A stretch of DNA of 64,000 bases from Xanthomonas sontii (GTDB lineage: Bacteria; Pseudomonadota; Gammaproteobacteria; Xanthomonadales; Xanthomonadaceae): NCBI RefSeq assembly GCF_040529055.1, contig NZ_CP132342.1, forward strand, positions 2,788,001 to 2,852,000, read 5' to 3'. The position numbers and the translations under genes are program-made. Position 1 is the first letter of the stretch; every line of letters begins with the position of its first letter. Below, piece by piece: positions 48,374 through 61,603 of this stretch. Under the pieces are notes generated by a model, which did no database searches, was not told the DNA's origin, and saw nothing but the letters and a program-made list of their open reading frames with translations.

Positions 48374-48448
48374 ATCGGGGCGAACAGCCTCTTCAGCAGA
48401 TGACGGGAAGGCGCATCGGGGGAGTCGGGGGGAGGGTGGAACCGCGCG

Positions 48449-50221
48449 TCAGGACGGTGCTTCGTCGCCGCGCATGACCGGGTACAGGCGGTAGCGCTCG
48501 TCCCAGGAACTGTGGCGGCGGTAGAAGAACTCCAGCCGCGCCTGCGGATCCTTGGCGAAGGCCGCGTCGTGTTCGAGCTTGTCCTCGAACTCGGCCTTGA
48601 GCGCCGGGTCGCTGGCCAGCATCTGCCGCGCCACGTCCTCGGCGACGTAGTCCTCCATGTACTCGGCGCGCTCGAACGCGCTGTTGAACTCGCCCCATTG
48701 CAGCAGCGAGTCCGGCGCCTGCGGTTCCAGCAGCGCCATCAACAGCCGCGCCTTGGGTTGGGCGATCGGCACGAACAGCGCGCCGGCGCCGACGGCGCGG
48801 GTCTCCGGCTTCCAGGCGCCGGCGACGCTGAGCCGCTGGTGGCCTTCGGACGAGCGGGCGGCGAAGCTGGCGGTGTCGGCGCGGAAGGTCTGCACCGGCA
48901 GGGTGGCGTCGTGCTCCAGCGTGCGGAAGGCGATGCCGTGCTGGCGCAGCTTGGTGCCGACCAGGGCGGCCTGCGCCGCAGGCACCAGGTAGCCGGCGCG
49001 CGGCGCCGCGACTTCCACGCTGGGCACGATCTGGTCGCGCAGCGGCACGCGCCAGAGTTGTGGGGTGCGCTCGTCGTAGCGAGTCATCAGCGCGCCGGAC
49101 ACCGGCGAGGGCGTGCGCGTGTAGGCATAGCCGCGGAAATCCACCAGATGCGAGGCGTCGGTGGTGCGGTAGTCCAGCGCCACGGTCTTCCCGCCCAGGG
49201 CTTGCGCACGGGTGTCGGCCGCCAGCGCGTCGGCGCGCCACTGCGCACCGTGCCGCGCCACCTGCTGCAGCACCGAGACGATGGTGTTGCGGGTGATGCG
49301 CACGCGCTCGGGGTAGCGCTTCCAGGAATGCGTTTCCACCAGCATGCCGAAGCGGTTGCGCAGCTGGAAATAGCCGTGCGAGAAGCGCGGCGTCGGCACC
49401 CCGTCCTCGAAGCCGGAGGCGGGGTCGTCGTTGACCACGAAGGAGGGGTAGTAGGGCAGCGGCAGCGAGCCCTGCCGCTTCAGATCGGCCAGCACGCTGT
49501 CGCGCAGGCGCAGGCCGTCGCCGCGCAGCGCGGTATCGCCGGCGTGCAGCGGTTCCACCTGGATCGACACGTCGTGCTCGAACTGCGCGCCGTCGGTGAC
49601 GTGCAGGTCCACATACACGAGCGGGTCCCACTGCTCGACCAGGCGCAGCATCGCCTGCATCTCCGGCGCGTCGGCCTTGACGTAGTCGCGGTTGAGGTTG
49701 AGGTTCTGCGCGGTGGTGCGCCAGCCCATCTGTTCCGGACCACGCTGGTTGGGCCGGTTCCAGGCGCCGAAGCGCTCGTGCCCGTCGACGTTGAACACCG
49801 GTACGAACAGCCACACTTGCTTGTCCAGCGCGCCGCGCGCGGCCTGGCCGTCGAGCAGTTGGCGCAGCGCCAGGAAGCCAGCGTCCTTGCCGTCGATCTC
49901 GCCGGCGTGGATGCCGCCCTGGATCAGCACCACCGGCAGCTTGCGCGCCTGTGCGGCCGCCGGATCCAGCGCGCCGGAGGTGGATACCGCCAGCGCCTTC
50001 ATCGGCCGGCCTTCCGGGGTGGTGCCGAAGTCGAAACAGCGCACCGCCTGTGGATAGCGCTGCGCGAAGGCATCGCACAGCGCGATGGTTTCGGCGTAGC
50101 GGCCGGTGCGCGCGAATCCGCTGCGCTCGGCTTCGGTGGACAGGCCCGCCTCGCTGGCCAGCGACGGCATGCTGCAGAGCAGCATCGGCAGCAACAGGGT
50201 GGCCAGCCAGGGTCGGATCAT
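48449..50221 (-). CDS. exported M14 zinc carboxypeptidase
   Basis: Predicted 590 residues with a signal peptide (LATLLLPMLLCSMPSLAS). The M14 zinc site is complete: His105 and Glu108 in GIHAGEIDG, His207 in YVDLHVTDG, and catalytic Glu296 in MLVETHSWKRY. NLNLNRDY provides the substrate-carboxylate Arg/Asn set. The remaining 280 residues form a C-terminal region seen in large bacterial M14 enzymes. It should trim peptides or peptidoglycan stems in the periplasm. A divergent POT transporter gene follows upstream, suggesting linked peptide use. Confidence 0.92.
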   Translation of the reverse strand: MIRPWLATLLLPMLLCSMPSLASEAGLSTEAERSGFARTGRYAETIALCDAFAQRYPQAVRCFDFGTTPEGRPMKALAVSTSGALDPAAAQARKLPVVLIQGGIHAGEIDGKDAGFLALRQLLDGQAARGALDKQVWLFVPVFNVDGHERFGAWNRPNQRGPEQMGWRTTAQNLNLNRDYVKADAPEMQAMLRLVEQWDPLVYVDLHVTDGAQFEHDVSIQVEPLHAGDTALRGDGLRLRDSVLADLKRQGSLPLPYYPSFVVNDDPASGFEDGVPTPRFSHGYFQLRNRFGMLVETHSWKRYPERVRITRNTIVSVLQQVARHGAQWRADALAADTRAQALGGKTVALDYRTTDASHLVDFRGYAYTRTPSPVSGALMTRYDERTPQLWRVPLRDQIVPSVEVAAPRAGYLVPAAQAALVGTKLRQHGIAFRTLEHDATLPVQTFRADTASFAARSSEGHQRLSVAGAWKPETRAVGAGALFVPIAQPKARLLMALLEPQAPDSLLQWGEFNSAFERAEYMEDYVAEDVARQMLASDPALKAEFEDKLEHDAAFAKDPQARLEFFYRRHSSWDERYRLYPVMRGDEAPS

Positions 50222-50389
50222 CTCGGCACCGTCTCGGGACAGGCCACCATGATGCGGGCAGCGCGCCGATTGCGAAAGCACCTAGGGCGTGTCCTAGCGG
50301 TTCGATTCGCCGGAACGATCGGGTAACCTTCTGAAAATTTTGCCTGGACGAGGGCCCGTGAGCAGCCAAGCCACCACGAGACACGCCGC

Positions 50390-51946
50390 ATGAGCGCGGC
50401 GCAAGAGCGCGCCACGGCGCGCATGCCGCGGCAGATTCCGTACATCATCGGCAACGAGGCCTGCGAGCGCTTCAGCTTCTACGGGATGCGCAACATCCTG
50501 GTGCAGTTCCTGATCACCTCGCTGCTGCTGCAGGAGGTGACGGCGCCCGGCCGCGAGGCCGAAGCCAAGCACATCATGCACAGCTTCATGATCGGCGTGT
50601 ACTTCTTCCCGCTGCTCGGCGGCTGGCTGGCCGACCGCTTCTTCGGCAAGTACAGCACCATCCTCTGGTTCAGCCTGATCTACTGCGTGGGCCACCTGTG
50701 CCTGGCGCTGTTCGAGGGGCATCGCAACGGCTTCTTCCTCGGCCTGGGCCTGATCGCGCTGGGCGCGGGCGGGATCAAGCCGCTGGTGGCCTCGTTCATG
50801 GGCGACCAGTTCGACCAGGGCAACAAGCACCTGGCCAAGGTGGTGTTCGACGCCTTCTACTGGATCATCAACTTCGGCTCGCTGTTCGCCTCGCTGCTGA
50901 TCCCGCTGGCGCTGAAGAACCTGGGGCCGGCGTGGGCGTTCGGCATCCCCGGCATCCTGATGCTGGTGGCGACCCTGGTGTTCTGGGCCGGGCGTCACCG
51001 CTACGTGCGCGTGCCGCTGCCGCCCAAGGATCCGCACGGTTTCGCCCAGGTGGTGCGCACCGCGCTGCTGCGGCAGGCGCCGGGGCAGGGGCGTCCCGGC
51101 CTGGCCCTGGCCGGCGTGGCGGTGCTGCTGGCGCTGGCGACGTTCGCCCTCGTGCCGACCCTGGGCCTGGTGATCTGCCTGTGCCTGGCGCTGGTGCTGC
51201 TGCTGGCCGGCATCGGCGGCGGCACCTGGTGGCAACTGGAGCGCGCCCGCGCGCTGCATCCGGACGCGGCGGTGGACGGCGTGCGCGCGGTGCTGCGGGT
51301 GCTGGTGGTGTTCGCGCTGGTCACCCCGTTCTTCTCGCTGTTCGACCAGAAGGCCTCGACCTGGGTGCTGCAGGGCCAGCAGATGCAGATGCCGGCGTGG
51401 TTCAGCGCTTCGCAGATGCAGGCGCTGAACCCGGCGCTGGTGATGCTGCTGATCCCGTTCAACAACCTGGTGCTGTATCCGCTGCTGCGCCGGCGCGGCT
51501 ACGAGCCGACCGCGCTGCGGCGGATGACCGCCGGCATCGCCTTCAGCGGCCTGGCGTGGATCGTGGTCGGCACGCTGCAGGTGATGATGGACGGCGGCGA
51601 CGCCCTGTCCATCGCCTGGCAGATCCTGCCGTACGCGCTGCTGACCTTCGGCGAAGTGCTGGTCTCGGCGACCGGCCTGGAATTCGCCTACAGCCAGGCG
51701 CCGCAGTCGATGAAGGGCGTGGTGATGAGTTTCTGGAACCTCACCACCACCGTCGGCAACCTGTGGGTGCTGCTGTCCAACGCGGCGGTGCGCAACGACC
51801 GCGTCACCGCGCACATCGGCAGCACCGGGCTCAGCGAGACCGCGTTCCTGATGTTCTTCTTCGCCGCCTTCGCGTTCGTCGCCGCACTGCTGTTCGGGCT
51901 GTACGCGCGCCGCTACCGCATGGTCGACCACTACCGCCCCGCCTGA
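50390..51946 (+). CDS. POT-family proton-coupled peptide transporter
   Basis: Predicted 518 residues with about 14 membrane helices. It has the POT signatures NEACERFSFYGMRNIL (the ExxERFxYY-type helix 1 motif) and GGWLADRFFGKY, and FSLIYCVGHL and FDAFYWIINFGSLFASLL in the second block. It imports di- or tripeptides with protons. The gene diverges from the M14 peptidase across 168 bases that include the hairpin CTAGG-GCGTGT-CCTAG (50282-50297). The rhomboid gene follows after eight bases. Confidence 0.93.
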   Translation: MSAAQERATARMPRQIPYIIGNEACERFSFYGMRNILVQFLITSLLLQEVTAPGREAEAKHIMHSFMIGVYFFPLLGGWLADRFFGKYSTILWFSLIYCVGHLCLALFEGHRNGFFLGLGLIALGAGGIKPLVASFMGDQFDQGNKHLAKVVFDAFYWIINFGSLFASLLIPLALKNLGPAWAFGIPGILMLVATLVFWAGRHRYVRVPLPPKDPHGFAQVVRTALLRQAPGQGRPGLALAGVAVLLALATFALVPTLGLVICLCLALVLLLAGIGGGTWWQLERARALHPDAAVDGVRAVLRVLVVFALVTPFFSLFDQKASTWVLQGQQMQMPAWFSASQMQALNPALVMLLIPFNNLVLYPLLRRRGYEPTALRRMTAGIAFSGLAWIVVGTLQVMMDGGDALSIAWQILPYALLTFGEVLVSATGLEFAYSQAPQSMKGVVMSFWNLTTTVGNLWVLLSNAAVRNDRVTAHIGSTGLSETAFLMFFFAAFAFVAALLFGLYARRYRMVDHYRPA

Positions 51947-51954
51947 GACCCCGC

Positions 51955-52590
51955 ATGCCCTCCGTCACCCCCGTCAACCTGATCCTGATCGTCCTCACCG
52001 TGCTGGTGTCGTGGGCGGCGTTCAACAACCGCCGGCTGCTCGACCGGCTGATCCTGTGGCCGCCGGCGATCGACCGCCACAAGCAGTACGACCGGCTGGT
52101 GACCTACGGCTTCATCCATGCCGATTTCCCGCACCTGCTGTTCAACATGGTCACGCTGTACTTCTTCGGCGGCCCGATCGAGGTGCTGATGGAGCGGCTG
52201 ACCGGCAACATGCTGGTGTATCCGCTGTTCTACCTGTCGGCGTTGGTGGTCTCGATCCTGCCCAGCTACCTGAAGAACCAGAAGAACCCCAACTACATGA
52301 GCCTGGGCGCCTCCGGCGCGGTGTCGGCGGTGCTGTTCGCCTTCATCCTGATGGCGCCGTGGACCGGGATCTTCTTCTTCTTCATCCCGATTCCGATCCC
52401 GGCGATCCTGTATGCCGTGTTCTATGTCGGCTACAGCATCTGGATGGACCGCCGCGGCGGCGACAACGTCAACCACAGCGCGCACCTGGCCGGCGCGGCG
52501 TTCGGCGTGATGTTCCTGCTGATCATGGAGCCGTCGGTGCTGCAGCACTTCCTGGGCGAGCTGGCGAACCCGCGCTTCGGGCGCGGCTGA
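51955..52590 (+). CDS. rhomboid intramembrane serine protease
   Basis: Predicted 211 residues, six membrane helices. The catalytic Ser120 is in SLGASGAVSAVLF and the catalytic His177 in NHSAHLAGAAFG; FIHADFPHLLFNMVTLYFFG is the typical helix-2 motif with its Asn and two His. It cleaves membrane proteins within the bilayer. It lies eight bases after the POT gene and may be co-transcribed. Substrate unknown. Confidence 0.95.
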   Translation: MPSVTPVNLILIVLTVLVSWAAFNNRRLLDRLILWPPAIDRHKQYDRLVTYGFIHADFPHLLFNMVTLYFFGGPIEVLMERLTGNMLVYPLFYLSALVVSILPSYLKNQKNPNYMSLGASGAVSAVLFAFILMAPWTGIFFFFIPIPIPAILYAVFYVGYSIWMDRRGGDNVNHSAHLAGAAFGVMFLLIMEPSVLQHFLGELANPRFGRG

Positions 52591-52743
52591 TCCGCGACGC
52601 GGTGGCGTCCGCACGGGCGCGCGGCGCCGCGCGATCGGCGCATCTCTCATTCGCTGCGCTGGGTATGCGCCGTGGCGCCGATGCGGTCGTGGGCACGCAT
52701 CGCGCATGGGGCAGGTGGCGGTCCGTCAGGCCGCCCTCTGTGT

Positions 52744-52950
52744 TCAGCGGGTCTGCTGCCCGCGCAACTGCACCTTGGCGCTGCCGATGGCGGCGTTCTC
52801 GTAGGTGCGCTTGAGGCGCTGGTAGACCTCGTCGTCGAGCTGCTGGAACTCGCCGCCCTGGTGGTCGCCGCTGACCGACAGTTGGAACAGCCCTTCCAGC
52901 AAGGAGGCGTTGTGGTCGCCCTGGTCGTATTTGCTCTCGGTCTCGCTCAT
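52744..52950 (-). CDS. small conserved-looking hypothetical protein
   Basis: Predicted 68 residues, polar and acidic at the front (SETESKYDQGDHN) with a central helix and a basic end (KRTYENAAIGSAKVQLRGQQ). Codon use is typical of the genome, and the start has a preceding GGAACC-type weak ribosome site. No signal peptide or membrane segment. Not recognised. A 20-base perfect palindrome lies 31 bases upstream of its start, which argues that the gene is real and regulated. Confidence 0.65.
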   Translation of the reverse strand: MSETESKYDQGDHNASLLEGLFQLSVSGDHQGGEFQQLDDEVYQRLKRTYENAAIGSAKVQLRGQQTR

Positions 52951-52980
52951 GCGCGTGGTTCCCTGTTGGATCGCTGCGTG

Positions 52981-53000
52981 ATGGGAGTTGCAACTCCCAT
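52981..53000. promoter_or_regulatory. 20-bp perfect palindrome ATGGGAGTTGCAACTCCCAT
   Basis: The 20 bases are exactly self-complementary with no spacer. They lie 31 bases upstream of the 68-residue gene (minus strand) and 167 bases upstream of the GNAT gene (plus strand). The length and position fit a homodimeric repressor site; no terminator-like T-run follows. No matching regulator is encoded next to it. Confidence 0.55.
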
Positions 53001-53166
53001 GCCAGGTTTTCGGCCTGTCCTGGTGGTATCGGCCGCGCGCGGCACGACTTGAGCGGCGTACGGCTGACGCGCCGCGTCGGCGGCGTGACGCCCTGGGGCA
53101 GGTGTTTCACATCGCCGCGGCAAGCCGCAGCGGACACTGCCTGCTCCGCGACACATCCACTTCCCC

Positions 53167-53451
53167 ATGTCCGCACCGAACGTCCCGATCGCGCACGATC
53201 CGCAGCAGCACCGCTTCAGCCTGCAGGTCGACGGCCACCGCGCCGAACTCGACTACGTGCTGGAGCAGGGGCGCATGGTCATCGCCCACACCGGGGTGCC
53301 TGGCCCGATCGGTGGGCGCGGGCTGGCGGCGCAACTGGTCGCCGCCGCGCTGGACCATGCGCAGGCACAAGGGTGGAAGGTGGTGCCGGCGTGTTCGTAC
53401 GCGGCCGTGTTCATCCAGCGGCATCCGCAATACGCGGCGCTGCTCGATTGA
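53167..53451 (+). CDS. GNAT-like small N-acetyltransferase (NATD1 type)
   Basis: Predicted 94 residues. The pattern AELDYVLEQGRMVIAHTGVPGPIGGRGLAAQLVAAALDHAQAQGWKVVPACSYAAVFIQRHP matches the minimal GNAT family (Gcn5-related, YjdJ-like), including the acetyl-CoA pyrophosphate loop G-x-G-R-G-L-A and CSYAAxFIxRHPxY. Substrate unknown. It stands alone between the 68-residue gene and the DUF3298 lipoprotein. Confidence 0.88.
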   Translation: MSAPNVPIAHDPQQHRFSLQVDGHRAELDYVLEQGRMVIAHTGVPGPIGGRGLAAQLVAAALDHAQAQGWKVVPACSYAAVFIQRHPQYAALLD

Positions 53452-53540
53452 GCATCGGGCACCGCAACGGCGCGATAATGCGCGCCACTTTTACAGGCAT
53501 TGCAGGAACAGGGGCAGTCGACGTGAGCAGGGCAGAGACG

Positions 53541-54383
53541 ATGGGCAACGGGCGGATGGCATGGACGGCACTGGCGGTCGCCGCGGCGCTGGCACTGGCC
53601 GGCTGCAAACGCGAGGAACCGGCCGCCGTACCGGCGCCCGCCGCGGCACCGGCACAAAGCGAGGCTTCCGCGGCGCCGGAGCCGGCGCAGGCCACGCCGC
53701 CGGAACTGAAGGACATCGTCGAACACAGCCCCAGCTATGTGGTCGGCATCACTTTCCCGCCGTCGATCAACCGCTATCCCGGACTGGCCGAGGCGGCCAA
53801 CCGCTACGCGCAGAGCGCGCGCAGCGAGCTGATGGAAGCGGTCGACGGGCTCGGCAACGATCGCCCGCGCGCGCCCTACGAACTCTCGCTGCAGTTCGAG
53901 ATGCTGCTGGAGCGTCCGGACCTGGTCGCGCTGAGCGCCGACGGCAGCCGCTACACCGGCGGTGCGCACGGCGAACCGCTGGTGGCGCGTTGGGTGTGGC
54001 TGCCGCAGCAGCAGCGCATGCTCACCGCCGAGACACTGATCCCGGATGCGTCGCATTGGAAGCAGGTGGCCGGCTATGTCGCCGCGCAACTGCGCCAGGC
54101 GGTGCAGACGCGGGTGGATGCCGAACAGGTGCCGCCGGAGGACCAGGACGAGCAGGTGCGCAGCGCCAGCAAGATGATCGCCGAAGGCACCGAGCCGCAG
54201 CCCGGCAACTTCAGCCAGTTCCAGCCGTTGGTCGACGCGGCGGGCAAGATCACTGCCTTGCGCTTCGTGTTCCCGCCGTACCAGGTGGGGCCGTACGCCG
54301 ATGGCACGCAGACGGTGGACGTGCCGGCCAGCGTGCTGCGCGAGCTGGTGGCACCGGAATACGCGCCGCTGTTCGCCGCCTGA
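53541..54383 (+). CDS. DUF3298/RsiV-like lipoprotein
   Basis: Predicted 280 residues. Lipobox LAGC places the lipidated Cys at 22, followed by an Ala/Pro linker and a DUF4163/DUF3298 domain (about 60-270) including RYTGGAHGEPLVARWVWLP, a segment typical of the RsiV-type fold, and the C-terminal FVFPPYQVGPYADGTQTVDVP. Such domains bind glycans or lysozyme in some bacteria, but no sigma factor is adjacent here. An in-frame GTG at 53523 is an alternative start. Confidence 0.85.
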   Translation: MGNGRMAWTALAVAAALALAGCKREEPAAVPAPAAAPAQSEASAAPEPAQATPPELKDIVEHSPSYVVGITFPPSINRYPGLAEAANRYAQSARSELMEAVDGLGNDRPRAPYELSLQFEMLLERPDLVALSADGSRYTGGAHGEPLVARWVWLPQQQRMLTAETLIPDASHWKQVAGYVAAQLRQAVQTRVDAEQVPPEDQDEQVRSASKMIAEGTEPQPGNFSQFQPLVDAAGKITALRFVFPPYQVGPYADGTQTVDVPASVLRELVAPEYAPLFAA

Positions 54384-54519
54384 GCGGTGGCCGGCGCGCC
54401 AGCGCGCGTCGGCGTGCGGTGCACCGCGTCGACAGCATGCGGGAACGCAACGCGTGCCCTCGTCGGAACGATGCGCAATGGGTAGCATTGGCGGCTACCC
54501 CACTTGCAATCGATTTCTT

Positions 54520-55053
54520 ATGGGCAGTTTCGATCAGACCGAGCGGCGCGTGGCGCACACCTGCGCGCGCTATCCGGCCTTCCCGCGCGAGCCCGCCGTC
54601 CTGGTCCGGCTGGTCAAGCACCTGTACAAGCGCGTGCATGCCAACGCCAGCGGCGTGCTCAAGGCGTACGGCATCAGCCCGCCGGAGTACGAGATCCTGA
54701 TGATGCTGTACGGCACGCCCGAGCAGTGCATCACCCCCACCGAGGTGGCCGAGGCCGCCAGCGAGAAGCCGGCCAACATCACCCGTCTCACCGACAGCCT
54801 GTGCAGCAAGGGGCTGCTGTCGCGCACGGCCAGTCCGGAAGACCGGCGCAAGGTCGCGCTGACCCTGCAGCCGGCCGGCATCGCCCTGATCGAACGCTTG
54901 CTGCCGGACGTGTGTGCGTTCCTGGAGACGGAAACCGCGGCGCTGGATGCCGGCGAGCAGCAGCAACTGGAGAGACTGCTGAAGAAGATGCTGGCCGGCA
55001 TCGACGGCCTCGACGCTGCCACCGAGTCGAAGACGCAGGCAGCGCTGCCCTGA
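54520..55053 (+). CDS. MarR-family regulator, paralogue of the efflux MarR
   Basis: Predicted 177 residues. The HTH contains EAASEKPANITRLTDSLCSKGLLSR, almost the same as the efflux regulator (EKSANITRLTSQLVDKGLIQR). The wing is SPEDRRKVALTL. Three or four cysteines (TPEQC, CSKG, DVCAF) could sense oxidants. No pump gene is adjacent. An inverted repeat CAATG-GGTAG-CATTG (54476-54490) lies 30 bases before the start and may be its operator. Confidence 0.9.
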   Translation: MGSFDQTERRVAHTCARYPAFPREPAVLVRLVKHLYKRVHANASGVLKAYGISPPEYEILMMLYGTPEQCITPTEVAEAASEKPANITRLTDSLCSKGLLSRTASPEDRRKVALTLQPAGIALIERLLPDVCAFLETETAALDAGEQQQLERLLKKMLAGIDGLDAATESKTQAALP

Positions 55054-55103
55054 GGGCACCTCGAAGAAGGTACGTCCGCGGCATCGAGCGTGAGGCGATG
55101 TGC

Positions 55104-55240
55104 TGTAGGAGCGGCTTCAGGACGTCTCTAATAACGCGTTATTGCCGCGGCTCGGCATGATGTCCTTTCTCGATTGTAGGAGCGGCGTCAACCACGACGG
55201 GCGTTCCCGGTAACGCCTGTCGCGGCTGAAGCCGCTCCTA
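55104..55240. repeat. composite REP-like element
   Basis: TGTAGGAGCGGCTTCAGGAC, TTGCCGCGGCTCGGC, GTAGGAGCGGCGTCAACCAC and the inverted TGTCGCGGCTGAAGCCGCTC together form a long imperfect stem-loop between MarR and the anti-sigma gene. The segment from TTGCCGCGGCTCGGC on resembles 2964-3004, so the two elements share internal modules. Confidence 0.75.
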
Positions 55241-55319
55241 CCGAACGTGTTCCGGCGTGCTTCGGAGGTGCGCCAAGGCGCGTTGTCCATCCCGAAGCAA
55301 GCGGGGCATCGGCCTGTTG

Positions 55320-56102
55320 CTAGCGCCAGCCGCGCGCGCGCGCGCGCTGTTCGCCGTCGGCATCCAGCGCCTCGCCGGCGATCCGTGCATCCACCGCCTG
55401 CAGCACGGCGGCCGGCATCGGGCTGGCCGCCATGCGCATGCCGCCGCCGTCGTGGCGTTCGCCGGCGGGCACCAGCAGTTCCACCCGCCATGCGCCGTCG
55501 CGTTGGCAGGCCAGGCCGGCGCTTGCACTCGGCAGGGCGAAGGTGCGGCAGTAATGGCCGTCGTGATCGCGGAAGCTCAGGCCGATGCGCACGCTTCCCT
55601 GGGACTGGCCGGACAACTGCTGCGTCAGTGCCTGCGCCAGCGCGCCCTCGGCGACGCCACCCTGGGCCGCCGCGACCGTCGGGCCGTGCGCATCGCCCTG
55701 CGGCAATTGCCGCTGCGCGATCCACAGCCCCAGCAACAGCGCCGCCGCCAAGGCCGCCGGCAGCGCCCAGCGGCGCCGCGCACGCGGCCGCAGCGGCGTC
55801 GGCCGGCTGGCTTGCGCCGTTACCGGGACGGGCGAGGACGGCAGCGCTGCGACATCGGCGTGCTGGCCGGGCGCGCCAGTGGGCCGTGCACGCGCAGCGG
55901 CGAGCAGGCGCGCGGGTACCGCTTCGTCCAGCACCGGGGCGAAGCCGGCGCGCAGCCGCGCCTGCAGGCTGCGCAGCCGTTCCAGGGCCTGTGCCAGCTG
56001 CGGGTCGCTGCGCAACGCCGCTTCCACCTGGGCGGCCTGCGCCGCATCCAGTTCGCCGTCGGCGTAGGCCTGCAGCGTGAGTGCGTCGATCGTGGTGTTC
56101 AT
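55320..56102 (-). CDS. anti-sigma factor (transmembrane), partner of the ECF sigma
   Basis: Predicted 260 residues. The cytoplasmic N-terminal helical domain (LTLQAYADGELDAAQAAQVEAAL) is the common anti-sigma fold, without a zinc Cys motif. A membrane helix runs about 112-129 (WALPAALAAALLLGLWIAQ). The periplasmic part contains two cysteines (GHYCRTFAL, GLACQRDG) and ends ARARGWR. It overlaps the sigma gene by four bases (ATGA, 56099-56102), giving balanced expression. Release signal unknown. Confidence 0.9.
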   Translation of the reverse strand: MNTTIDALTLQAYADGELDAAQAAQVEAALRSDPQLAQALERLRSLQARLRAGFAPVLDEAVPARLLAAARARPTGAPGQHADVAALPSSPVPVTAQASRPTPLRPRARRRWALPAALAAALLLGLWIAQRQLPQGDAHGPTVAAAQGGVAEGALAQALTQQLSGQSQGSVRIGLSFRDHDGHYCRTFALPSASAGLACQRDGAWRVELLVPAGERHDGGGMRMAASPMPAAVLQAVDARIAGEALDADGEQRARARGWR

Positions 56103-56632
56103 GCGGTCGCCTCCAGTGATGCCTGCAGGGCTTCGCGTCCGCGCGCGAGCCGGCTGGTGAGTGTGCCGAGCGGAATCTCCAGCACCGCCGCGGCATCCTT
56201 GTAGGACAGGCCTTCGATCAGCACCAGTGCGATCGCCAGGCGTTGTTCCTCGGGCAGGCCGGCCATCGCGGCCTGCACGGCCATCCAGTCCTGCTGCCGC
56301 TCCAGCGGCGTGTCGCCGACGTGTTCGCCCTCGGTGGCATCCACGAAGACCTGTCGCCGTCGCCGCTGCGCCCGCACCTCGTCGATCCAGGCGTGGCGGA
56401 TGATGCCGTACAGCCAGTACTGCAGCGGCGTCTCCGGCCGCCATTGCCCGGCGCGGCGCAGGGCGCGCTCGATCGCGATCTGCAGCAGGTCGTCGGCGTC
56501 CTCGCGATGGCCGGCGACGGCACGCGCGAAGCGCCGCAACTGCGGCAGCAGGGTACAGATGCCGTCGCCGACGGCGGCCGTGGGATCGGCGTGCATGTCG
56601 GTGATACGTTCGGCGGAGGGGTTTTCTTCCAT
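56099..56632 (-). CDS. ECF-type RNA polymerase sigma factor
   Basis: Predicted 177 residues. Region 2 contains RRFARAVAGHREDADDLLQIAIERALRRAGQW and LQYWLYGIIRHAWIDEVRAQRRRR; region 4 contains AMAGLPEEQRLAIALVLIEGLSYKDAAAVLEIPLGTLTSRLARGREAL. The short linker and absence of regions 1 and 3 make it ECF class. It is bound by the downstream anti-sigma. The gene diverges from the subtilase, with only 81 bases between starts, so the sigma may control that promoter too. Confidence 0.93.
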   Translation of the reverse strand: MEENPSAERITDMHADPTAAVGDGICTLLPQLRRFARAVAGHREDADDLLQIAIERALRRAGQWRPETPLQYWLYGIIRHAWIDEVRAQRRRRQVFVDATEGEHVGDTPLERQQDWMAVQAAMAGLPEEQRLAIALVLIEGLSYKDAAAVLEIPLGTLTSRLARGREALQASLEATA

Positions 56633-56713
56633 GGGCGCGGCGCGGCGTTCACCGCGTGTCGGGATGGCAGGATTAGTGTGGCACGCCAACAGGGGCGGAC
56701 AACGGAGCGGGGC

Positions 56714-58009
56714 ATGGCGACGGGCAGGCGAATGCGCTGGATGGCCGTGGCATGGCTGGCGGTGGCGACACCAGCGTTGGCGCAGCTGGCGCTGCCGTCG
56801 GCCGGCGGGCTGGTGCAGGACGTCACCCAGGGCATGCAGGGCGGCATGAATCGGGTGGGAGAATCGCTGCAGGACGCGCGCGGCGAGGTCGAACGGCTGC
56901 GGCTGAAACGCCTGCAGGCGCTGCTGCGCAGCGATCCGCGCGGGCTGGAGCGCGACGAGGGCGGCGCGGTGGTGATGCGCGGGCAGGTGGTGGCGCTGGA
57001 GCCGGATCCGGCGGCGCTGCAAGCGGCGCAGGCGGCCGGCTTCGCGGTGCTGGAGCAGCGCAGCTTCGGCGAATTCGGCCTGCGCCTGGTGGTGCTGCAG
57101 GTGCCGTCGGGCCTGTCCACGCGCCGCGCCCTGCAGCAACTGCGCGAGCGCGATCCGCAGGGCGAGTACGACTACAACCACGTCTACAGCGGATCGGCGG
57201 CGGTGCCACCGGCGCCAGCCAGCGCGTCCGCCGTTCGCGCAGCCGAGGGTGCCGCGACGGGCGGCTTCGTGGTCGGGCTGATCGACAGCGGCGTGGACGC
57301 CGCGCATCCGGCGCTGGCCGGCGTGCAGGTGCAGACCTGGGGCTGCGACGGGCAGGTGCGCGCGCAGCCGCATGGCACGGCGGTCGCCTCGCTGCTGGCG
57401 GGACGCGCGGTGGCGCACGGGCCATTCGCGCGGACCCTGTATGCGGCCGACATCTATTGCGGACAGGCCGATGGCGGCACCGTGGTCGAGCTGGTCGGGG
57501 CACTGGCATGGATGGCGCAGCAGCAGGTGCCGGTGATCAACATCAGCCTGATCGGCGGGCCCAACCGTGCGCTGCAACTCGCCGTGCAGCGCATGCTCGC
57601 GCGCGGCCACGTGCTGGTCGCGGCCGTGGGCAACGACGGCCCGGCGGCACCGCCGCTGTACCCCGCGGCCTATCCCGGGGTGATCGGCGTCACCGCGGTG
57701 GATGCGCGTGCGCGGGTCTTGCCGGAGGCGGGGCGAGGGCCGCAGGTGGCCTTCGCCGCGGTCGGCGAACTGATCGCCGCGGCACCGCAAGGCCGCTGGC
57801 AGACGCAGCGCGGCACCTCCTTCGCGGCGCCGCTGGTGGCGCGGCTGGCGGCGCAGGCACTGTCGCAGCCGAATCCGCAGGCGGCCGCGCAGGTGCGCAC
57901 GCAGTTGCAGGCGCAGGCGAGCGATCTCGGTGCGCCCGGCACCGATCCGGTGTACGGCGCCGGGCTGCTCGGCGCGGACCTGCCGCTGCAGCGCGCGCCG
58001 GGCGGCTGA
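56714..58009 (+). CDS. exported S8 serine peptidase, divergent from the ECF sigma
   Basis: Predicted 431 residues with a signal peptide (AVAWLAVATPALAQ). A distinct N-terminal region (about 25-180) with RLRLKRLQALLRSDPRGLERD precedes the catalytic domain: Asp191 in LIDSGVD, His220 in PHGTAVAS, oxyanion Asn307 in AVGNDGP and Ser369 in GTSFAAPLV. Two Cys residues (CDG, YCGQ) sit near the active region. It has no C-terminal extension. Its place opposite sigma/anti-sigma suggests a regulatory or stress-response protease; substrate unknown. Confidence 0.92.
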   Translation: MATGRRMRWMAVAWLAVATPALAQLALPSAGGLVQDVTQGMQGGMNRVGESLQDARGEVERLRLKRLQALLRSDPRGLERDEGGAVVMRGQVVALEPDPAALQAAQAAGFAVLEQRSFGEFGLRLVVLQVPSGLSTRRALQQLRERDPQGEYDYNHVYSGSAAVPPAPASASAVRAAEGAATGGFVVGLIDSGVDAAHPALAGVQVQTWGCDGQVRAQPHGTAVASLLAGRAVAHGPFARTLYAADIYCGQADGGTVVELVGALAWMAQQQVPVINISLIGGPNRALQLAVQRMLARGHVLVAAVGNDGPAAPPLYPAAYPGVIGVTAVDARARVLPEAGRGPQVAFAAVGELIAAAPQGRWQTQRGTSFAAPLVARLAAQALSQPNPQAAAQVRTQLQAQASDLGAPGTDPVYGAGLLGADLPLQRAPGG

Positions 58010-58113
58010 ACGCATTCTGTCTGCGTCCCGCCTGCACGGGATGTTCTGCGTCGCTCGATTCGTAGGGAGACATGAGAGCCGCAGATGGCCTGCGGCGACA
58101 CGAGGAGAATGCG

Positions 58114-58914
58114 ATGAACGGCAAGACTCTGTTGGCGAGCGCGGTGCTGGTGGCGTCGGTGGCGCTGATCCCGGGCGTGGCCGGCGCGCAGTTGCTGGGC
58201 GGTGCGGGCAGCGTGGGCGGTGCGGTCAACGGCACCCTGGGCGGCCTGGGGGGCGGCAGCCTCGGCGGCAACGGCATGGGCGCAGGCCGCCTGGACGCCG
58301 GGGTTCCGCTGGATCGCGCCCGCAGCGGCATCGAGCAGTCGTCGCAGCGTGCGCGGATGGCGGCGCAGCGGGCGGCGGCGCGTGGCGCGGCCACCGCGGA
58401 CGGCGCGGCGCATACCGCCGACGCTGCGGTGAACCAGGGCCGCACGCTGGCCGGCAATGCCGCCGCCAGCGGCAGTGCGGCGGCACGCAGCGCGGCCGGT
58501 AGCGCGATGGGCCAGGCCGACGGCGCGCTCGGCGCGGCGACCAGCGCGGCCAATCCCACCGCGGCGCTGGCGACCGCCGGCAATGCCGCCGGTGCAGTCA
58601 ATGGCATGACCGGTAACGGTGCTGCGTCGAGTGCGGCCGGTAACGGCAGCGGCAACGGCGCCGCCAGCGGCGGCAGCCTGCCGACGGTGCCGACGGTGCC
58701 GACGGTGCCGGCGCTGTCCGGCAGCGGCAGTGCCAACGGTGCGGCCAGCGGCAGCGCCTCGCACAGCGCGGGCACCCATGGCGGGTCGGTGTCGGGCCAG
58801 GCGGGTGCGGGTGGCCAGGGCGGTGTGCAGGCCGGTAGCGGTCAGGCGCAGGGGCAGGCCGGCGGCAATGCTTCGCTGGGTGCCAGCATCAACGCCTCCA
58901 GCGACGGCCAGTAA
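58114..58914 (+). CDS. Gly/Ala-rich low-complexity exported protein
   Basis: Predicted 266 residues. A signal peptide (LLASAVLVASVALIPGVAGA) is followed by Gly/Leu repeats (SVGGAVNGTLGGLGGGSLGG), an Ala/Arg-rich helix (about 70-150) and a Gly/Ser/Ala tail with the triplet VPTVPTVPTVP. A GAGGAG lies seven bases before the ATG. It follows the subtilase on the same strand by 104 bases. The composition is that of a disordered or fibrous surface polymer; it resembles no enzyme. It may be the subtilase's substrate or partner, by position only. Confidence 0.8.
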   Translation: MNGKTLLASAVLVASVALIPGVAGAQLLGGAGSVGGAVNGTLGGLGGGSLGGNGMGAGRLDAGVPLDRARSGIEQSSQRARMAAQRAAARGAATADGAAHTADAAVNQGRTLAGNAAASGSAAARSAAGSAMGQADGALGAATSAANPTAALATAGNAAGAVNGMTGNGAASSAAGNGSGNGAASGGSLPTVPTVPTVPALSGSGSANGAASGSASHSAGTHGGSVSGQAGAGGQGGVQAGSGQAQGQAGGNASLGASINASSDGQ

Positions 58915-58969
58915 GCCGCTGACGGTCACGCGCGGCGTACCGCGCGTCGCCATCGCGACGGCAGGCTGA

Positions 58970-59002
58970 AAAACACGACGCCCGGCTGAGCCGGGCGTCG
59001 TG
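58970..59002 (-). terminator. terminator for the dcp gene (minus strand)
   Basis: A perfect 13-base stem, CACGACGCCCGGC/GCCGGGCGTCGTG (58974-59002), loop TGA. Read on the minus strand it is followed by TTTTTC, so it terminates dcp, whose stop is at 59097. It could also stop plus-strand reads weakly. Confidence 0.75.
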
Positions 59003-59096
59003 CGTGTTGCGTTCTGCGGTCAGTCGCGGGTGTGTTCCGCCGCGACCTCGTCGCGACGTGGCGGCACGGCCGCACGGGCCGTGCCGCGCTGCGCCC

Positions 59097-61283
59097 TCAG
59101 CGTGCGCTCGGCGTCGCCGCCGGCGTGGCGTTGAGGCCGCGCTTCTCCAGCAAGGGTTCGATCTGCGGCGCGTGCCCGGCGAAGTCCTGGAACAACTGCA
59201 TCGCATCGACGCTGCCGCCGCGCGAGAGCAGGGTCTTGCGGAAGCGGTCGCCGTTGGCGCGGCTCAGCCCGCCATGCTGCTTGAACCACTGCTGGGTGTT
59301 GGCGTCCAGCACCTCGGCCCAGATGTAGGCGTAGTAGCCGGCCGCGTAGCCGCCCATGATGTGGCTGAAGTACGGCGTGCGGTAGCGCGGCGGCACCGGC
59401 GCATAGGCGATGCCGTCGGCGGCCAGCGCCTTGGCCTCGAAGTCCATCACGCCCGATGCCGGCGGCACCTGGCCGGCGCTCAGCTGGTGCCAGCGCTGGT
59501 CGAGCATCGCCGCGCCCAGGTACTCGGTGGTGGCGAAGCCCTGGTTGAACTTGGCGGTGGCCACCACCTTGTCCAGCAGCGCCTGCGGCATCGGCGCGCC
59601 GCTCTGGTAGTGCTTGGCGTAGTGCTTGAGGATGGCCGGATCGTCGGCCCACATCTCGTTGACCTGCGAGGGGAACTCGACGAAGTCGCGCGGCACGCTG
59701 GTGCCGGAGAAGTACGGGTACTTCACGTTCGAGAACATGCCGTGCAGCGCATGGCCGAACTCGTGGAAGGCGGTAGTGACCTCGTCCCAGGTCAGCAGGG
59801 TCGGTTGCCCGGCCGGCGGCTTGGGAATGTTGAGGTGGTTGGCGACCACCGGCTTGTCGCCGGTCAGCGCCGACTGCGACACGTAGGAGCTCATCCAGGC
59901 GCCGCCGCGCTTGGACTCGCGCGCGTACATGTCGGCGATGAAGATCGCCAGCTGGCTGCCGTCGGCGTCGAACACGTCGTAGACCAGCACGTCGTCGCGG
60001 TAGGTGGGCAGGTCGGTGCGCTGCTTGAAGGTCAGCCCGTATTCCTGGTTGGCGGCGTAGAACACGCCGTTTTCCAGCACGTTCTTCAGTTCGAAGTAGG
60101 GCTTGAGCTGGGCCTCGTCGAAGTCGTACTTGGCCTGGCGCACCTTCTCGGTGTAGTAGGCCCAGTCCCAGGCCTCGAGCTTGAAGCTGGGCTTGCCGGC
60201 GGCCTTCTGCTCCTGGTCGATCATCGCCTGCAGGTCGGCGGCCTCGCGCTTGGCGTTGGCCACCGCGGCCGGGGCCAGCTTGCCGAGCATGGCGTTGACC
60301 GCTTCGGGCGTCTTCGCCGTTTGGGTTTCCAGCGAATAGGCGGCGTGGTTCGGATAGCCGAGCAGCTTGGCGCGGTCGGCGCGCAGGGTCATGATCCGCG
60401 ACACCAGCGCGGTGTTGTCGTAGGGGCCGCCGTGGCTGCCGCGCGACACCGAGGCTTCGTAGATCTTCTGCCGCAGGGCGCGATCCTTGAGCTGGGCCAG
60501 CGGCGGCTGGCCGGTGGTGTTGAGCAGGGCGATCACGTACTTGCCGTCGAGCTTGCGCGCCTTGGCTGCTTCGGCGGCCGCGGCGATCTGCGCGTCGGAC
60601 AGGCCGTCGAGCTGCTTGACGTCGTCCACCACCACCGCGGCGGCGTTCACTTCGGCCAGGACGTTCTGGCTGAACTTGGTGCCCAGTTCGGCCAGTTCGG
60701 CGTTCATCGCCTTGAGCTTGGCCTTGTCGGCGTCGTTGAGCTTGGCGCCGTCGCGGACGAAGTCGCTGTGGTACTTCTCGATCAGGCGCACGCCCTCCGC
60801 GTCCAGGCCGAGCTGGTTGCGGGTGTCGTACAGCGTCTGGATGCGCGCGAACAGCTTGGGATTGAGCGCGATCGCGTCGCGGTGCGCGGCCAGCTTGCCG
60901 GCGTACTCGGCCTGCAGCTTCTTGCGGGTGTCGTTGGTGTCGGCGCCGACCAGGTTGAAGAACACGGTGGTGGCGCGGTCCAGGACCTGCCCGCTCTTCT
61001 CCATCGCCACGATGGTGTTGTCGAAGGTCGGTTTGGCGGTCTGATCGGCGATGGCCTGCATTTCCTTCAGCTGCTGCGCCATGCCGGCGTCGAACGCGGG
61101 CGCGAAATCGCTGTCCTTGATCTTGTCGAACTGCGGGTAGTGCAGCGGCAGCGGGCTTTCGGCGAAGAACGGGTTGGCCTGCGTGGCCGCCGTGGCGGCG
61201 GTGGGCGTGGTGGCCGGAGCGGCGTAGGCGGGCATGGCGAGTCCGAGCGTGGCGGCGAGGGCAAGGGCGAGGCGAGAGGTCAT
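59097..61283 (-). CDS. dcp: peptidyl-dipeptidase Dcp (M3 family)
   Basis: Predicted 728 residues with a signal peptide (LALALAATLGLAMPAYA), so it is likely periplasmic. The zinc motif is His507-Glu508-Phe-Gly-His511 in TAFHEFGHALHGMFS, with the third ligand region downstream at DFVEFPSQVNEMWADD. GGYAAGYYAYIWAEVLDAN is the conserved M3 C-terminal block. It removes dipeptides from peptide C-termini. Monocistronic with its own terminator. Confidence 0.95.
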   Translation of the reverse strand: MTSRLALALAATLGLAMPAYAAPATTPTAATAATQANPFFAESPLPLHYPQFDKIKDSDFAPAFDAGMAQQLKEMQAIADQTAKPTFDNTIVAMEKSGQVLDRATTVFFNLVGADTNDTRKKLQAEYAGKLAAHRDAIALNPKLFARIQTLYDTRNQLGLDAEGVRLIEKYHSDFVRDGAKLNDADKAKLKAMNAELAELGTKFSQNVLAEVNAAAVVVDDVKQLDGLSDAQIAAAAEAAKARKLDGKYVIALLNTTGQPPLAQLKDRALRQKIYEASVSRGSHGGPYDNTALVSRIMTLRADRAKLLGYPNHAAYSLETQTAKTPEAVNAMLGKLAPAAVANAKREAADLQAMIDQEQKAAGKPSFKLEAWDWAYYTEKVRQAKYDFDEAQLKPYFELKNVLENGVFYAANQEYGLTFKQRTDLPTYRDDVLVYDVFDADGSQLAIFIADMYARESKRGGAWMSSYVSQSALTGDKPVVANHLNIPKPPAGQPTLLTWDEVTTAFHEFGHALHGMFSNVKYPYFSGTSVPRDFVEFPSQVNEMWADDPAILKHYAKHYQSGAPMPQALLDKVVATAKFNQGFATTEYLGAAMLDQRWHQLSAGQVPPASGVMDFEAKALAADGIAYAPVPPRYRTPYFSHIMGGYAAGYYAYIWAEVLDANTQQWFKQHGGLSRANGDRFRKTLLSRGGSVDAMQLFQDFAGHAPQIEPLLEKRGLNATPAATPSAR

Positions 61284-61603
61284 CAAGCGGTATCCGCAAT
61301 CATGGTGATCGGGCAGGCTACCCCAGGCCGGCAGGCGTGACCCGTGACGAAAGCCATGGGAGCGCTGCAGCATCGACGCTTGTTTCGCAAGGCTTTGCGG
61401 CATTTGGCGTGAACCTTGATGCAGTGCGCTTTCGCGCGTGGCGGCGCCGGTGCGGCCACGCATCGGTGATGCGTTGGCGCGTTCGCGCCAACCTCTGCGA
61501 CGCCGCCTCGCGTATCGGCCCCGGTTGGCTGGCGACGCGTGCGGCCACCGCGTAGCATCGCCTCGACCCAGCGCCGCTGCGGCGCGCCGCACCACGAGGA
61601 TCC
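61284..61603. other. divergent promoter region between dcp and gpx
   Basis: About 320 bases without a supported gene on either strand. Both flanking promoters must lie here. I see GC-rich sequence and a few short direct words, but no strong -35/-10 pair, palindrome or repeat. Confidence 0.4.

Follow-up and report, generated by a model that had tools for sequence, protein, structure and literature searches.

Four adjacent genes in a 64,000-nucleotide stretch of the Xanthomonas sontii genome (hereafter the window, positions 2,788,001-2,852,000 of a single-contig genome of 5.02 Mb) probably form a small and almost self-contained circuit for envelope responses, of the ECF26 (RpoE6-EcfR6) type, in which an extracytoplasmic function (ECF) sigma factor and its anti-sigma factor are joined by a subtilase and a glycine-rich (Gly-rich) output protein. 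The anti-sigma gene (55320..56102, 260 amino acids, recognized from its reading frame, domain and membrane helix) and the sigma gene (56099..56596 from its likely start, 165 amino acids) lie on the reverse strand, and the genes for a subtilase of family S8 (56714..58009, 431 amino acids) and for a Gly/Ala-rich protein with a predicted Sec signal (58114..58914, 266 amino acids) lie on the forward strand. All four reading frames were found in the order given by an earlier note on this DNA, including the four-base ATGA overlap of the sigma and anti-sigma genes. These genes constitute a conserved module in scattered species of three proteobacterial classes, and its gene conservation, promoter motif and geometry, near-restriction to the locus and protein architecture were all computed.

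Conservation was assessed from several starting points. When named genomes were scanned with an alignment of the subtilase, 473 relatives were found, and the best 80, from the alpha, beta and gamma classes, were taken as loci in which the subtilase is present by construction. The sigma gene adjoins the subtilase gene in 80/80 and the anti-sigma gene in 79/80, the sole locus without a full anti-sigma gene (L105) being one whose contig ends inside it, and the sigma and subtilase genes are divergent in 78 loci and co-directional in two (L061, L079). Anchoring on the anti-sigma factor instead, we obtained 13 matches in 398 genomes of the phylum, with a subtilase gene no more than about 1 kb away from the sigma gene in 11 of the 12 that were not the window's own; one of them (G324) duplicates L078 of the subtilase scan, being the same DNA, so that 10 of 11 new loci carry the subtilase. 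Within the family, the subtilase query matched 23 of 198 genomes, and sigma and anti-sigma genes adjoin in 22 of these, the exception (G089) being a distant subtilase match with weakly similar sigma and anti-sigma genes in the same direction. A profile search of the 198 family genomes, own included, placed the subtilase in 22 and the anti-sigma factor (E <=1e-40) in 25, and every genome with the subtilase also holds the anti-sigma factor. The three extra anti-sigma genomes were G161, G177 and G024, of which G024 is no exception, since its contig starts inside the anti-sigma gene. Weaker anti-sigma matches in G025 and G106, with a sigma-like gene and no subtilase in 6.5 kb, were left uncounted.

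The fourth gene gave no Pfam match, and it encodes a signal peptide, a Gly-rich head (QLLGGAGSVGG...) and a low-complexity Ala/Gly/Ser-rich body. A same-strand signal-peptide gene follows the subtilase shortly downstream in most loci. When the Gly-rich rule was set as a signal peptide together with a Gly content of 20% or more over residues 19-80, it was passed by 65 of 75 scorable fourth genes versus 8 of 815 other predicted genes, and three of those eight are displaced fourth genes and three are subtilases. Five of the 80 loci stood outside this count, two for want of a call (L058, L064) and three for a signal score that was too low (L063, L083, L091); L063 is nevertheless visibly Gly-rich, and L058 and L091 hold displaced copies, as does L038. 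Across 79 Gly-head loci, which include a few repeated species, the gene starts 40-272 nt (median 105) 3' of the subtilase on the same strand, and the mature proteins contain one Cys in 17,817 residues. The window protein, in which the Gly-rich head directly follows the signal peptide, belongs to this proposed family of exported outputs. The earlier note had read the Gln-Leu start of the mature subtilase and Gly-rich protein as a shared signature; by a crude cleavage rule, Gln stands there in 68 of 79 Gly-head homologues, and Gln at a mature N-terminus is an ordinary signal-peptidase context, which therefore gives no shared processing signature. Outputs also vary by lineage. In Luteimonas-like loci another exported protein takes the place of the Gly-rich one as product of the fourth gene, and in several the next gene encodes an outer-membrane-like protein (sub-threshold DUF3187 match in the one scanned); in L038 the Gly-rich gene sits after these two Luteimonas-type genes. 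The Gly-rich head is fused to a C-terminal OmpA domain in two alphaproteobacterial loci and to a PRC-barrel in one Novosphingobium (L171 1559-2551, L099 7166-8077, L206 6494-7405), which suggests that the Gly-rich protein is anchored in the envelope.

A shared promoter motif links the sigma operon to the Gly-rich gene. Word counts 5' of the subtilase returned GGGAT-N18-CGT on both strands, and the refined consensus was (G/T)GGA(A/T)(G/T)AAA-N14-CGT(T/A). The site of the sigma operon, TGGAAGAAAACCCCTCCGCCGAACGTA (56605..56631, reverse strand), scores 28.2 against a threshold of 2.5, and that of the Gly/Ala-rich gene, GGGATGTTCTGCGTCGCTCGATTCGTA (58038..58064, forward strand), lies 76 nt before the ATG and scores 14.9. 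A first matrix, which was refined on the same three regions that it scores, matched 81 of 83 Gly-gene regions (2 on the opposite strand) and, of 84 regions each, 75 for the sigma gene and 55 for the subtilase. For a cleaner test, a second matrix was built from 62 sigma-promoter sites alone, and in dereplicated Gly-gene upstream regions it matched 78 of 83 when the null rate was 3% and 75 of 83 when it was 1%, the corresponding opposite-strand counts being 3 and 0; 69 of the 78 sites lie 70-80 nt before the gene start. All three displaced Gly-rich genes have the motif about 75 nt upstream. The conserved gene order and the common ECF motif ahead of both transcripts, which the earlier note had put forward as checks, were thus both found, at the level of sequence. 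As the strong promoter at 56605-56631 overlaps the annotated sigma start at 56632 (177 amino acids), translation probably begins at the ATG that follows in frame, at 56596, and the CGTA of the -10 element ends 8 nt 5' of it. The 81-base gap between the sigma and subtilase genes reported earlier holds from the annotated start and widens to about 117 bases from the likely one. In many lineages 6-8 or 12 nt separate the -10 element of the sigma promoter from the first in-frame start, and by analogy with the SMa0142 start described in PMC6180224, sigma mRNAs of this type may have almost no leader.

The relative placement of the sigma and subtilase promoters was examined in 102 loci, six of them repeats. 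Both sites are present in 65, the sigma site only in 33 and neither in 4. The two-site loci fall into a 13-nt offset class with back-to-back -35 boxes (28/65; betaproteobacteria, mostly Massilia and Duganella), a 33-nt offset class with overlapping promoters (15/65; alphaproteobacteria) and 22/65 with other offsets. The offset is exactly 33 in 9 of 12 phylum loci, and in 8 of the 11 outside the training set. When the consensus was scanned across nine alphaproteobacterial genomes (eight outside training), 25 matches were found versus one for the reversed-pattern control, and 21 of them are at the locus, a count that includes sites of the small exported protein described below in G336 and G455. 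Of six off-locus sites recorded in this and a parallel scan of Xanthomonadaceae, two precede signal-peptide genes, the one in G164 lying before a gene for an outer-membrane-like protein and the one in G419 before a gene for a small exported protein; the other four have no such gene. In G164 the gene for the first protein (sub-threshold DUF3187) carries this ECF promoter at a distance of 30 kb from the locus; the protein was matched in 4 of 12 genomes searched (L042 8102-8911, L197, L199-L204), with two copies each in G164 and G174 and no match in the window's genome. The second (about 113 amino acids, PIAGIENxLWFDYRID...EAQKEL.SDLRRASD; L134 929, L136 994, L139 968, L179 1501) gave no Pfam match over the cut-off in the one scanned, and carries an ECF promoter in four genomes, all from a single alphaproteobacterial family, off-locus in G419 and beside the locus in G336, G455 and G556. 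The regulon thus appears to be nearly limited to the locus.

The sigma factor consists of regions 2 and 4 (Pfam Sigma70_r2 and r4_2), and its best NCBIfam model, PRK12511, falls below the cut-off, as it does for the homologous sigma factor of Sinorhizobium meliloti pSymA. The anti-sigma factor gave a weak zf-HC2 match (21.7 bits versus a Pfam cut-off of 22.2), and is built of an N-terminal anti-sigma domain (residues ~1-71), a single membrane helix (117-131) and a periplasmic alpha+beta domain (153-256); its AlphaFold model has a mean pLDDT of 80.8, with a low-confidence linker at 133-145. C185 and C199 of the periplasmic domain are invariant in 66 aligned sequences, and the tail (...LDA..E..AR..GWR) is conserved. 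The subtilase, identified by reading frame, Pfam, alignment and model, matches PF00082 Peptidase_S8 with 99.1 bits (cut-off 21.8), and the nearest named relative among the listed matches is a Xanthomonas whose subtilase is 94% identical. Its best NCBIfam match, the mycosin model TIGR03921, reached 102.9 bits and fell short of the curated cut-off of 278.75. The signal peptide and intact Asp-His-Ser triad described earlier are borne out, with D191, H220 and S369 invariant in 53 aligned sequences, whereas the N-terminal region that had seemed unusual models as a signal peptide (~1-23), a helix (45-73) and a subtilisin-type propeptide (~86-159; 56969..57190, forward strand) ahead of the catalytic domain (~184-417). 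Supported by alignment, model and structural match, the propeptide has the order beta-alpha-beta-beta-alpha-beta and ends in ...NHVY158, a conserved end which, by analogy with subtilisin, we take to be the self-cleavage site. The top structural match in the PDB is unprocessed pro-subtilisin E (3whi). The fold of propeptide and catalytic domain is shared with the pro-subtilisins (subtilisin E, fervidolysin), from which the module protein differs by an extra N-terminal helix. A Cys pair (C211/C249) is invariant in 20 family homologues and not in the wider 53. In the draft genome of L026 (G143), the module subtilase carries a single in-frame TGA.

The earlier note had regarded the sigma/anti-sigma/subtilase trio as uncharacterised, yet a sigma/anti-sigma pair facing a serine protease gene has already been described in ECF26. 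According to PMC6180224, rpoE6 of S. meliloti and the serine protease gene SMa0142 are transcribed divergently, in a layout that is conserved widely across ECF26, and overexpression of RpoE6 raises SMa0142 and ecfR6 mRNA (4.7 and 3.6 in the log fold change column). The published ECF26 promoter (-35 GGAATA, -10 GT; PMC6180224) is fitted by KGGAWKAAA-N14-CGTW. On pSymA of S. meliloti strain ml46 we found a sigma gene, an anti-sigma gene and a divergent S8 peptidase gene homologous to the module trio (1.8e-49, 9.7e-41 and 2.9e-88 against the respective module profiles), the last of which was matched to SMa0142 by the exact promoter GGGAATAGACCGACGACTCAGCCGTT. The two-Cys motif of the anti-sigma factor is the same in this RpoE6 system and in the module, and the RpoE6 promoters resemble the module motif with a spacing one nucleotide shorter; the S. 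meliloti subtilase differs in its N-terminal region, which is Asp/Gly-rich. With a cognate anti-sigma factor of the same layout, a divergent serine protease (in the window and 78/80 loci) and the promoter, the window sigma factor has the traits of the RpoE6-like ECF26 members, to which it would belong by similarity to the S. meliloti homologue. RpoE1 and RpoE4, placed in the same sigma group, have COG5662-type anti-sigma factors and small regulons (PMC3511301), and the rpoE1 operon promoter is of the GGGAATAAA type (PMC6180224). Unlike the module, they govern sulfite oxidation in response to compounds that generate sulfite; rpoE6 was not induced by such compounds in preliminary data, and the passages of PMC3511301 consulted make no mention of a subtilase linked to RpoE1 or RpoE4. 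ECF26 has more than 100 members in the classification cited there (PMC3511301). Class I anti-sigma factors of the RseA/MucA/RslA type are also counted among the closest known systems. The trio is therefore a known arrangement, for which the passages of literature examined give no function; a Gly-rich output, overlapping promoters and a near single-locus regulon were not found in the open-licence literature searched, and the Gly-rich partner appears to be new.

Taken together, these features make the following circuit probable. The single-pass anti-sigma factor would tether the sigma factor at the membrane, and its periplasmic domain would sense a signal that leads to release of the sigma factor by a mechanism that we infer. 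The freed sigma factor would then transcribe its own operon and the Gly-rich gene from the shared promoter, and, in many alpha- and betaproteobacterial and some gammaproteobacterial lineages, the divergent subtilase as well. Where the sigma and subtilase promoters overlap, the two transcripts should compete. The subtilase would be exported as a propeptide-inhibited zymogen, and, like that of the Gly-rich protein, its export and location are predicted.

The role of the subtilase in such a circuit can be read in two ways, both raised in the earlier note. It may cut or trim the periplasmic domain of the anti-sigma factor in the manner of a site-1 protease, thereby amplifying or triggering release of the sigma factor, a reading that we consider possible, if somewhat short of an even chance. 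It is the sole exported protein kept with sigma and anti-sigma factors where the outputs change, and the periplasmic domain of the anti-sigma factor is joined by the low-confidence linker at 133-145; on the other hand, G572 retains the pair without a subtilase, the subtilase-anchored set is uninformative on this role, and, to our knowledge, the known site-1 proteases of anti-sigma factors belong to other families, which counts against it. Alternatively, the subtilase may be purely an effector that matures or turns over the Gly-rich protein or other exported outputs and takes no part in sigma release, which we regard as tenable but rather doubtful. The Gly-rich gene lies closely 3' of the subtilase on the same strand and is co-regulated with it in many loci, both proteins are predicted to be exported, and triad and propeptide are intact. 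Yet the subtilase persists beside a different annotated neighbour in Sinorhizobium, the Gly-rich gene can be up to ~4 kb away (L058), and no conserved cleavage motif, nor any invariant column, was seen in 78 Gly-rich sequences. Since outputs vary by lineage while sigma factor, anti-sigma factor and subtilase stay, a place for the subtilase in the regulatory core is slightly favoured over an effector role. A bolder proposal, which we think unlikely, is a self-amplifying switch, in which the zymogen made under sigma control would cut the anti-sigma factor, the disordered Gly-rich envelope protein would be both output and substrate, and mutually exclusive promoters would set the balance between holding and firing.

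That the genes are adjacent merely through lineage inertia, as ordinary synteny with no functional linkage, is very improbable: a neighbouring M3-type peptidase gene is indeed also kept in close Xanthomonas relatives, but the module spans three classes with different outer neighbours, and the shared promoter moves with the displaced Gly-rich gene. Partial decay or rewiring in Xanthomonas deserves more weight, and we would put it at an even chance that the subtilase there has a housekeeping promoter and only the sigma operon and the Gly-rich gene remain under the sigma factor. The earlier note had the sigma factor controlling the divergent subtilase promoter, and this is partly supported, by a good motif in 55 of 84 dereplicated loci, whereas the window and its near Xanthomonas relatives have only a weak site. 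In the window this is a degenerate ECF-like element, GGGATG-N17-CGCC (56661..56687, forward strand), with a score of -6.2, below the threshold of 2.5. The motif is absent before the subtilase in 37 of 102 loci, including the window's relatives, although a few starts may be misplaced. Within this region TAGTGTGGCA (56674..56683, forward strand) is invariant across six aligned Xanthomonas-type loci and could be a housekeeping -10 region, and TGCTAGCA was seen by eye ahead of the subtilase gene in eight of these 37 loci. The -10 reading, however, was itself made by eye, and the nearest relatives keep GGGATG at the right spacing.

Besides the lack of a good ECF promoter before the window subtilase, several observations weigh against the proposed circuit. 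The Gly-gene promoter of the window (L009) misses the sigma-only matrix at both null levels, and scores above threshold only with the matrix that had it among its starting sites; the site retains both GGGATG and CGTA, correctly spaced and placed, and in the six Xanthomonas-type loci GGGA.G and CGTA are kept while the spacer drifts. The consensus scan of 11 Xanthomonadaceae genomes speaks for the circuit, with 19 matches versus seven for the reversed pattern and 17 at the locus, but these are the genomes from which the motif was derived, and their locus matches are expected. When a looser pattern was run on the own genome, 11 matches were found versus 21 for its reversed control, and, without an excess, the regulon proposed for this genome rests on position. 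The 40 genes raised on RpoE6 overexpression (PMC6180224) exceed a near single-locus regulon, and the gene annotated 3' of the S. meliloti peptidase belongs to the VOC family and is not Gly-rich. Only 7 of 20 genomes of the genus, the window's own among them, contain the module, which argues against wide conservation; the loci are partly dependent, six family loci repeating genome-scan loci and the 13-nt class coming mostly from Massilia and Duganella. Finally, the anti-sigma genes of G161 and G177 have neither sigma factor nor subtilase in 8.5 kb, and G572 (L154) has its sigma/anti-sigma pair without the subtilase. By eye, the lone anti-sigma genes (L143, L144) lie 3' of a purA-like gene and are possibly a remnant or a rewired regulator, and the gene facing the pair in G572 resembles one for a penicillin-binding protein.

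The surroundings of the locus were also inspected. Judged by sequence appearance, peptide-handling genes crowd window positions 48400-61600, with a carboxypeptidase-like gene (48449-50281), a POT-type transporter (50390-51946), a rhomboid-like protein and the M3-type peptidase (near 59097). A further S8 match lies near 800-1729, and 13 S8 matches were counted genome-wide. REP-like repeats (GTAGGAGCGGCTTCAG...) were noted by eye at 55105-55245, between a MarR-like gene and the anti-sigma gene.

For ECF26 biology, in which the passages of literature examined assign no role to the protease facing RpoE6-type sigma genes, the module has as its commonest output one exported Gly-rich protein whose promoter moves with its gene, and a regulon that is nearly limited to the locus; this would provide a small closed system for testing signal, anti-sigma cleavage and output. 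The overlapping promoters lend themselves to studying how divergent ECF promoters compete.

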